Positions 15,386 through 49,183 of a DNA stretch of 64,000 nt are shown in pieces. The notes beneath the pieces were generated by a model. It saw only the letters and a list, made by a program, of their open reading frames with translations. It did no database searches and was not told the DNA's origin. A program made the translations under genes and the position numbers. Where the stretch lies: contig CACYXE010000012.1 in assembly GCA_902778275.1 (NCBI GenBank), positions 38,362 through 102,361 on the forward strand. The letters are read 5' to 3'. This stretch comes from Oscillospiraceae bacterium. Its GTDB lineage: Bacteria > Bacillota > Clostridia > Oscillospirales > Oscillospiraceae. Positions within the stretch are counted from its first letter, which is position 1. Each line of letters starts with the position of its first letter.

Positions 15386-15405
15386 CACAAAATAAAAGCG
15401 ATGCT

Positions 15406-15568
15406 ACGACAGCTCTCCGCATTTCTGCGACAGTCCGGCGGATCTTCTCCGACGGCCCAGGCACACCCGGCCGGGAACCGGATGCCCTTCGGCGATGACC
15501 CCTTTCACTGCCGCCCGCGTTCCCGCGCGTACGGCGGCGGCTACTGATGGACACCGCGCCTCTATCAT
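15406..15568 (-). promoter_or_regulatory. Lysine riboswitch aptamer (LYS element)
   Basis: Read on the minus strand, the leader has the conserved L-box blocks in order: ATGATAG (P1, 15568-15562) then AGAGGCGCG, CATCAGTAG, GTGAAAGGGG, CATCGCCGAAGG, GGGTGTGCCTGGG and GGAGAGCTGTCGT. The last ends in CTGTCGT (15412-15406), which closes P1 with ATGATAG. The ~163-nt size is normal for the class. With the promoter upstream and the terminator downstream it forms a complete OFF switch for the NhaC-family gene. Confidence 0.9.
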
Positions 15569-15588
15569 GCTCTGTTCAATTTGGGTCT

Positions 15589-47677: not shown

Positions 47678-48157
47678 ATGGACTATGTAAAAGAACTGCG
47701 CGCGCTGGTGGGCCACCGGCGGCTGATCCTCTGCGGCAGTTCAGTGGTGATCCGAAACGAAAAAGGGGAGCTGCTGCTGCAGCAGCGGGTCTATCCGGAG
47801 GGGCGCTGGTGTTTCCCCGGCGGACTGATGGAGCTGGGAGAATCCACGGAGGACACCGCCCGGCGGGAGGTCTTCGAGGAGACAGCGCTGACTGTGGGGG
47901 CTCTGGAACTGATCGGCGTCTATTCCGGGCCGGACTCTTTGTGCCGGGCCGCCAACGGGGACGAGTGGTACGTGGTCAACGTCTCTTACACGACGAACGA
48001 GTACAGCGGGGAGCTGAAGATCAACGACGGCGAGTCCGCGGCCCTGCGCTGGTTCCGGATCGAGGAGATCCCGGAGACCCTGGTGGCCACGCACAAAAAG
48101 ATCCTGGCAGACTATCTTCGCATGATGCAGAAGAAAAGTTCACAGAATATTCATTGA
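47678..48157 (+). CDS. NUDIX hydrolase
   Basis: A 159-aa NUDIX protein. The Nudix box GGLMELGESTEDTARREVFEET supplies the REXXEE metal-binding helix near residues 47-68. The N-terminal strand ILCGSSVVIRNEKGELLLQQ is typical. The C-terminal part (RWFRIEEIPETLVATHKKIL) fits the MutT/ADP-ribose-pyrophosphatase-like group. The substrate is unknown. The ATG follows AGGAGGGCCGAT. Its stop codon TGA overlaps the TTGACA of the next promoter. Confidence 0.92.
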   Translation: MDYVKELRALVGHRRLILCGSSVVIRNEKGELLLQQRVYPEGRWCFPGGLMELGESTEDTARREVFEETALTVGALELIGVYSGPDSLCRAANGDEWYVVNVSYTTNEYSGELKINDGESAALRWFRIEEIPETLVATHKKILADYLRMMQKKSSQNIH

Positions 48158-48182
48158 CAAAAGGGAAGACCAGGTGTAGAAT
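48154..48182 (+). promoter_or_regulatory. Consensus SigA promoter of a non-coding transcript
   Basis: TTGACA (48154-48159), 17-base spacer, TAGAAT (48177-48182). It overlaps the end of the NUDIX gene and is followed by about 280 bases with no good ORF. Confidence 0.9.
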
Positions 48183-48188
48183 ACACGG

Positions 48189-48470
48189 CACTGGAGATGG
48201 GCGGCATCCCATCGGTGTGATCGGCACCATAACCCGCAGAGCATGACCAATTTACTTGCGGGCCTCCCGGCGGCTTGGTAGCCGGGTGTTGAGCGGGCAA
48301 CAACAGTCACCTCCACTCACCTACATAGGACTGATAACCGATCCGGGACCATAAGCCGGAAGCGCGGTATGATCCGCCGCTTCGCTTATGTGTGTCCATT
48401 GGCAATCCGCTTTTGATGAATTTCATAGGGAATGCTGAAAGCCTCTTCCAAAGAAGAGGCTTTCTTTTTT
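48189..48470 (+). ncRNA. Candidate structured non-coding RNA, class not identified
   Basis: Between a near-perfect promoter and a strong terminator lies about 280 bases without a credible ORF. It can fold into a series of short GC stems: 48196-48213 (GATGGG/CCCATC), 48214-48228 (GGTG/CACC), 48233-48262 (CCCGCA/TGCGGG), 48266-48286 (CCCGGC/GCCGGG), 48288-48301 (GTTG/CAAC), 48304-48333 (CAGTC/GACTG) and 48364-48377 (GCGG/CCGC). It lacks the SRP RNA loop, the RNase P and tmRNA signatures, and any riboswitch motif I know. A raiA-type or 6S-type RNA cannot be excluded by eye. The next ORF starts well beyond the terminator, so a cis-regulatory role is less likely than a free RNA. Confidence 0.65.
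48437..48470 (+). terminator. Terminator of the non-coding transcript
   Basis: GAAAGCCTCTTC / GAAGAGGCTTTC with loop CAAA, followed by TTTTTT. A canonical intrinsic terminator. Confidence 0.95.
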
Positions 48471-48554
48471 GGCGCGCCGCTGCCGGTCAACTGAGTAAAG
48501 CCGCAGCTGTCTGTGCGCCCTTTTCGCGCCGCTGCGAAGGACGGAAAAACGCTG

Positions 48555-48584
48555 TTGACAGCTGCGGCGGCACACACGTATACT
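48555..48584 (+). promoter_or_regulatory. SigA-type promoter upstream of the 102-aa ORF
   Basis: TTGACA (48555-48560), 18-base spacer, TATACT (48579-48584). Confidence 0.75.
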
Positions 48585-48989: not shown

Positions 48990-49072
48990 CAGACAGGGGA
49001 TCTTTTTGCGTGATTGTTCGTCAAATCATTCGGAGCGATAAGGATCGGAATTCGGATATGAGGAGGCAGGAT

Positions 49073-49183
49073 ATGAACTTCAAAAAGAATCTGTTGATAT
49101 CCCTTGCGCTGACCGCGGCGACGATGCTCATAGGGCTTGCCAGCGTAGCCGGAGCGGACAGGCGCCGCGGGACGGGAACATAA
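49073..49183 (+). CDS. Small 36-aa signal-peptide-like protein
   Basis: MNFKKNLLISLALTAATMLI begins a charged-then-hydrophobic sequence resembling a secretion signal, ending near AGA with a short basic tail (DRRRGTGT). The ATG has a strong Shine-Dalgarno (AGGAGGCAGG), and a good terminator follows six bases after the stop. If cleaved after AGA, only about eight residues would remain, so it may act as a membrane micropeptide or be the remnant of a larger secreted protein. No family is known. Confidence 0.5.
   Translation: MNFKKNLLISLALTAATMLIGLASVAGADRRRGTGT

Follow-up and report, generated by a model that had tools for sequence, protein, structure and literature searches.

A family of stand-alone structured RNAs with two covarying pseudoknots and separate long and short genes

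What kind of RNA might be encoded by a stretch of about 280 bases that lies between a promoter and a terminator of its own and holds no convincing gene? The question arose in the window, the 64,000-nucleotide stretch of DNA from an Oscillospiraceae gut bacterium analysed here, where a reading made from the sequence alone had proposed an unassigned structured RNA forming a separate transcription unit. The signals on which this proposal relied were borne out. The promoter (TTGACA-17-TAGAAT) is near-consensus, with 11 of 12 matches, and the spacing from its -10 box places the expected transcript start at about 48189-48191; the intrinsic terminator consists of 12 pairs with a 4-nt loop and six T. 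The upstream NUDIX ORF (E=2.1e-26 in Pfam) ends, as claimed, with its stop codon TGA within the -35 box, and the sequence supports a transcription unit separate from that gene. The 287-nt stretch 48186-48472 folds with -113.4 kcal/mol (z = -3.28), a stability that none of 200 shuffles equalled. The count of 'seven or eight' stems made by eye was about right, since there are eight hairpins (P1-P8) and the terminator; two additional long-range pairings are absent from the plain fold.

The RNA does not appear to conceal a gene, in agreement with the earlier claim: no conserved ORF was found in the window's RNA or its relatives. The ATG closest to the 5' end sits directly on GGAG, and its frame is not the same in the long and short forms described below, whose P1 loops differ by a 1-nt indel (alignment A3). 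No sense frame is open throughout the window's RNA or the relatives L014, L269, L277 and L029, and antisense frames of 71-191 codons are open over these four relatives. Beyond the terminator, another promoter follows (TTGACA-18-TATACT, 48555-48584), and between the two we noticed by eye an inverted repeat (GCCGCAGCTGTC / GACAGCTGCGGC, 48502-48570). Its second arm reaches into the -35 box of that promoter, so that the repeat might be an operator. A short ORF further on (49073-49183, forward strand, part of the ORF 49010-49183) contains a membrane-like segment (MNFKKNLLISLALTAATMLIGLASVAG...) and may encode a small membrane protein.

Comparison with Rfam 15 supported the view that the RNA does not belong to a recognised class. 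At the gathering score the window gave nothing at the locus, and only a lysine riboswitch elsewhere (15402-15572, reverse strand, 86.8 bits). At E<=10, positions 48120-48520 gave ten sub-threshold matches, each of them in the 3' part or covering the terminator; BTnc231 came highest, with 26 bits against a cut-off of 80.4. Eleven relatives searched at E<=1 yielded none at gathering score and two sub-threshold matches, and four diverged copies (L269, L270, L277 and L029) searched at E<=5 yielded none and 14, respectively. Near the RNAs, the sub-threshold matches were to anti-hemB and ar14, both covering the 3' part of L270, and to Thr_leader, close to the L269 terminator but on the opposite strand; a DUF3800-I RNA match at L029 (405-521, reverse strand, 32.4 bits against a cut-off of 44.2) lies outside the RNA.

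Two classes had been named as possible identities, raiA and 6S, and both are excluded by these searches. The raiA model (RF03072) gave no match at E<=10 in 48120-48520 and no match over its cut-off in any of 60 genomes, with weak matches at E<=10 in seven; 14 control genomes also stayed below the cut-off, so that this search had no positive control. Neither a raiA nor a comFC gene, one of which adjoins raiA RNA in most genomes, occurs among the 20 relatives' neighbours and six window proteins scanned, which are part of all neighbours. The 6S model (RF00013) likewise gave no match at the locus at E<=10, and a separate 6S RNA is encoded in the same genome (G000:C40:1491-1693), as it is over cut-off in 31 of 41 genomes of the genus, own genome included.

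We then looked for relatives; all genome counts that follow include the window's own genome, except for the DNA search around L029. A DNA search of 60 genomes gave matches in 12, one of which (G038, L012) matches the terminator alone, and the own genome holds a second copy (G000:C1). The exact P1-P2 motif occurs in 38 of 102 genomes of the genus, in 52 copies, against no match for the reversed control. It is missing from the other 64, many of them incomplete, and diverged copies such as L269 and L270, which the covariance model found, escape it. In 40 genomes of the genus this model accepted 19 copies in 14 genomes at E<=2.2e-12 and reached 23 genomes at E<=1; 17 rows were weaker than the accepted 19, and six of these (L271-L276) were inspected. 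Allowing two mismatches extended the motif to 75 of 102 genomes, and the three extra matches inspected (L211, L235 and L236) resemble coding sequence; a recurrent one, CCCATCTGGGCCATCGGCACC, resembles one conserved gene, and the others were judged from their letters.

Outside the genus, real members are few. Four of 150 genomes passed the family scan, with real matches confined to the genus. In the order, the covariance scan gave matches in six of 295 genomes at E<=0.01 and the motif scan in five of 394 (reversed control, one match), of which we judged only those in G000 and G352 real and dropped three from their letters alone. The sole convincing order-scan match besides the own genome is L029, a member in another family, for which no DNA relatives were found in 58 further genomes. 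The class scan (four of 391 genomes) gave two convincing copies, L277 and L278, from another order. Among 80 loci listed from named records, at least 16 are real copies as judged by model score; the locus that ranks next has E 0.0049. Among the matches listed, the titles of records with real copies name Oscillospiraceae, Ruminococcaceae, Eubacteriales, Clostridiales and Clostridia, and it is on these titles that the class name Clostridia for the family rests; four titles name sheep, water buffalo or roe deer samples.

The window copy has no match in phage or plasmid records. Viral contigs gave six motif matches, none convincing by model: four fail to reach E 10, L252 (E 0.0012) covers only P1-P2 within open frames, and another is weak (E 0.053). 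We also rejected the weak model matches L025, L028, L030-L032, L271-L276 and L279, which lie inside long open frames, and, by eye, L026, a match of 35 nt only. Absences in the model searches are soft, because no more than 7-77 candidates in each genome were scored with the covariance models.

The transcription signals recur in the relatives. For 56 copies (52 distinct cores and L280-L283, with L280 and L281 nearly identical) we found a promoter-like site ending 10-13 nt upstream of P1 in 53, compared with 10 of 214 random positions; the three without one are L200/L029, L280 and L281. Counted from the end of the -10 box, 28 copies have P1 at a distance of 10 nt, 20 copies at 13 nt and five at 11-12 nt. 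Terminator-like sites accompany 54 of 56 copies, a weak test given 89 of 214 random positions. An upstream element, TTYACA..RTTC.TTGACA, was considered as an rRNA-type signal and rejected, the own genome having only the window copy and one site with two mismatches.

The relatives share a core made of hairpins P1 and P2 and two pseudoknots. PK1 joins the loop of P2 to the core's 3' side, and PK2 joins the loop of P5 to an upstream strand that lies between P2 and P3. The parts of the window's RNA are collected in the table.

Table. Features of the window's RNA and its upstream neighbour (positions in the window)
Feature	Position	Strand	Basis
NUDIX gene, upstream neighbour outside the RNA	47678..48157	+	Pfam PF00293, ORF list
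Promoter	48154..48182	+	sequence match; similar spacing in 53/56 copies
ncRNA, long form, ~280 nt including terminator	48191..48470	+	homology, covariation; start from -10 spacing
P1 hairpin GATGGG/CCCATC, loop CGGCAT	48196..48213	+	invariant in 47 cores
P2 hairpin GGTG/CACC, loop carries PK1 5' strand	48214..48228	+	
PK1 5' strand GATCGG, pairs with 48338-48343	48219..48224	+	5/6 pairs with both-side changes
PK1 3' strand CCGATC	48338..48343	+	covariation
PK2 5' strand CCCGC, pairs with GCGGG 48293-48297	48233..48237	+	3/5 pairs with both-side changes
P3 hairpin GCATG/CTTGC	48241..48259	+	1/5 pairs with both-side changes
P4 hairpin CCGGC/GCCGG, loop GGCTTGGTA	48267..48285	+	4/5 pairs with both-side changes
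P5 hairpin GTTG/CAAC, loop carries PK2 3' strand 48293-48297	48288..48301	+	2/4 pairs with both-side changes
P6 hairpin CAGTC/GACTG, variable	48304..48333	+	stem score against shuffles
P7 hairpin, long form only	48346..48397	+	two-hairpin fold in 17/17 long copies folded
P8 hairpin, long form only	48401..48436	+	same fold test as P7
Intrinsic terminator 48437-48464 and T run	48437..48470	+	sequence

The covariation test proposed in the sequence-only reading, carried out here with shuffles rather than R-scape, was positive. Across 51 distinct cores, 14 of the 25 pairs tested (P3, P4 and P6 left out) changed on both sides, compared with 2.9 +/- 1.0 in shuffles (maximum 7); four diverged copies were aligned and L006 was put in register by hand. 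The same cores gave 40 both-side cells against 6.0 +/- 2.4 in shuffles, with 11 of 1274 cells unpaired. Alignment A3, which holds 47 of 52 distinct cores and omits L200/L029 as too distant, L183 and L168 as truncated, and L110 and L143 for an insertion, was 98.2% paired over 1645 cells and gave 41 both-side cells, whereas shuffles gave 7.9 +/- 2.6 and slid controls never more than 14; none of 500 shuffles attained any of five measures. These shuffle controls ignore relatedness, and most copies come from one genus.

P1 and P2 are invariant across the 47 cores, most of which were collected through a motif within P1-P2. In the motif-independent copies L269 and L270, P1 varies and stays paired (GAGGGG/CCCCTT and GCGGGA/TCCCGC) and P2 becomes GATG/CATC, still paired; with these two copies added, three of six P1 pairs and one of four P2 pairs show changes on both sides. 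PK1 is replaced wholesale with pairing kept, from GATCGG/CCGATC in the window to TGTCGG/CCGACA in L269, and in the distant copies L029 (GACCGG/CCGGTC) and L277 (AACTGA/TCAGTT) its strands are again complementary. PK2 reads CCCG/CGGG, CCTG/CAGG (c28 and c31) or TCCG/CGGA, its fifth pair being unpaired in 10 of 51 cores, and RNAalifold predicts it unaided in place of P5. L029 and L277 each carry two P4-P5 modules; the inner pairing of L029 is now CAGG/CCTG, and its TCCG pairs with the CGGA of the last loop. P3 has a U-U mismatch in the long form and is absent from L270, and P6 reaches a mean best-stem score of 10.5 in the 47 cores, compared with 8.28 +/- 0.35 in mononucleotide shuffles.

The family comprises two paralogues, a short form of about 190 nt and a long form of about 265-285 nt to which the window's RNA belongs. 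In a tree of the A3 cores, the long (17) and short (30) copies split into separate groups with a support of 0.87. Among the 38 motif-positive genomes of the genus, 12 have both forms, 19 the short only and seven the long only, with the form assigned from the P1 loop (for G009, from its 3' domain). In every one of the 17 long copies that we folded, the P7-P8 extension formed the same two hairpins (mean z -2.87; z below -2 in 12 copies). One genome (G034, L136) has a long and a short copy in tandem about 450 bases apart, possibly the footprint of a duplication. The long form can apparently decay: in two long copies of G498 (L168 and L183) the promoter, P1-P4 and the terminator remain but P5, P6 and the 3' strand of PK1 are gone, and in those of G488 (L110) and G487 (L143) about 65 bases have been inserted after P2, ahead of the 5' strand of PK2.

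The surroundings of these genes vary. The suggested position downstream of rpsB-tsf-NUDIX has a partial counterpart in one other copy only, L002/G011, which has tsf upstream and an ORF between tsf and the RNA. No gene family goes with every copy; flanking ORFs of the most widespread cluster occur at 18 of 52 copies, and a Pfam scan of 20 relatives' neighbours placed 17 in varied housekeeping families and left three without a match. A downstream gene was called in 52 of 56 copies, 31 on the same strand and 21 on the opposite, convergent strand; these calls come from a rough codon-based score for which the window served as training sequence, a naive ORF caller having been misled by antisense ORFs. 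No constant class of downstream same-strand gene, such as a riboswitch or cis-acting leader would have, emerged from these 52 copies, and because 21 of the 52 called genes lie on the opposite strand, a common cis-regulated gene is not likely. With neighbours this varied and so many downstream genes convergent, the RNA therefore probably acts in trans. Among the short copies a few groups with local synteny can be told apart (alpha-amylase-like, DJ-1/PfpI and others), and gene order shared in this way within a subgroup points to vertical inheritance.

At the level of comparative analysis, the family is established by its sequence, its covarying structure and its gene layout. As to what the window's RNA does, we favour, with moderate confidence, a new stand-alone structured RNA that probably acts in trans through a protein-bound fold. 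It would be transcribed constitutively from its own housekeeping-type promoter and ended by its own terminator; PK1 and PK2 would hold the core together; and through its compact fold the RNA may regulate while bound to protein, in the manner of raiA/ModT or 6S. We consider it less likely to be a plain antisense RNA or the leader of an adjacent gene. We infer action through a bound protein from conservation that lies in helices and knots and not in an open seed, as in raiA/ModT. The two paralogues may share one core partner and differ via P7-P8. A broader and less likely possibility is an orphan class of knotted RNAs, present in at least two orders, with a core housekeeping role as ribonucleoprotein or catalyst, for example in growth transitions as raiA/ModT; no raiA was over cut-off in the 60 genomes sampled, and the P4-P5 pseudoknot module is doubled in the distant members L029 and L277.

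A base-pairing sRNA is a possible alternative to which we give only modest weight. Here the core would protect the RNA while a loop, either the P1 loop CGKCA or the C-rich P6 loop of the long form (CCTCCACTCACC), pairs with mRNAs. The separate promoter and terminator signals would suit such an RNA, and several long-copy P6 loops hold CCACTC or TCCACTCAC, which by eye could pair with purine-rich ribosome-binding sites. However, the C-rich loop is absent from the short form and several long copies, and conservation is strongest for letters within helices and pseudoknots, not for an exposed seed. We regard as doubtful a free-standing ligand sensor, in which PK1 closes a pocket just before the terminator and the ligand tunes RNA length or partner. 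Knotted cores are typical of aptamers, and by eye the PK1 3' strand lies about 4-8 nt upstream of the terminator stem in the short copies read; yet PK1 and the terminator share no letters in the copies read, the long form interposes P7-P8, and the lack of a constant downstream gene, with its 21 convergent cases, counts against this sensor as well.

A ribozyme, self-cleaving or other, is improbable. Several ribozymes have a compact core, two pseudoknots and A-rich linkers, a likeness that counts in its favour, but no ribozyme family appeared among the window's Rfam matches at E<=10, and there would be little 5' sequence to process because P1 begins 10-13 nt past the -10 box in 53 of 56 copies. 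Patchy distribution and copies at different places would fit an RNA that serves a mobile element or a defence system as guide or cofactor (omega/re-RNA, tracrRNA, reverse-transcriptase ncRNA). This reading is nonetheless very improbable: none of the 17 Pfam-assigned genes among the 20 neighbours scanned (three unmatched) encodes a nuclease, transposase or reverse transcriptase, the phage, plasmid and viral searches gave nothing convincing, and subgroup synteny suggests vertical inheritance. Hardly credible is a diverged raiA/ModT or 6S RNA, despite similar size, stand-alone genes and, for raiA, the two pseudoknots and long and short isoforms described in PMC11706538, given the absent raiA matches, the differing pseudoknot layout and the separate 6S gene.

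The family was not found in Rfam 15 or in the open library of papers searched, supplements aside. What our analysis contributes is an RNA family whose architecture is defined, whose gene occurs as a duplicated pair and which has distant members. Stand-alone structured RNAs of comparable complexity are rare among those known from bacteria, and for this one there are now pairings that can be tested. The novelty applies to the RNA family; its mode of action may turn out to be a known one.

Among named systems, OLE, ROOL and GOLLD are likewise orphan, highly structured bacterial RNAs; they are much larger, and the RNA described here has no Rfam match. One of these ornate RNAs is named for its rumen origin (PMC12286853). 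With 6S (RF00013) our RNA shares the character of a stand-alone, housekeeping-type RNA. Paralogous 6S pairs are known in Firmicutes, and 6S itself is a rod with a central bubble, whereas the present RNA is a row of hairpins with two pseudoknots, has no match to the 6S model and coexists with a true 6S encoded elsewhere. A further likeness is to raiA/ModT (RF03072), also stand-alone, of similar size, in Clostridia, and with two pseudoknots and long and short versions; in-cell probing suggests that it binds protein (PMC11706538). In the cryo-EM study of raiA, the P3 loop (pk-1) and J4-1c (pk-2) both pair with the P5-P6 junction and the P1 stem ends in a three-way junction (PMC11751092). In contrast, each long-range strand in our family has its own partner, a different connectivity that the raiA covariance model does not match, P1 is a local hairpin, and the long and short versions, isoforms in raiA, are here separate genes.
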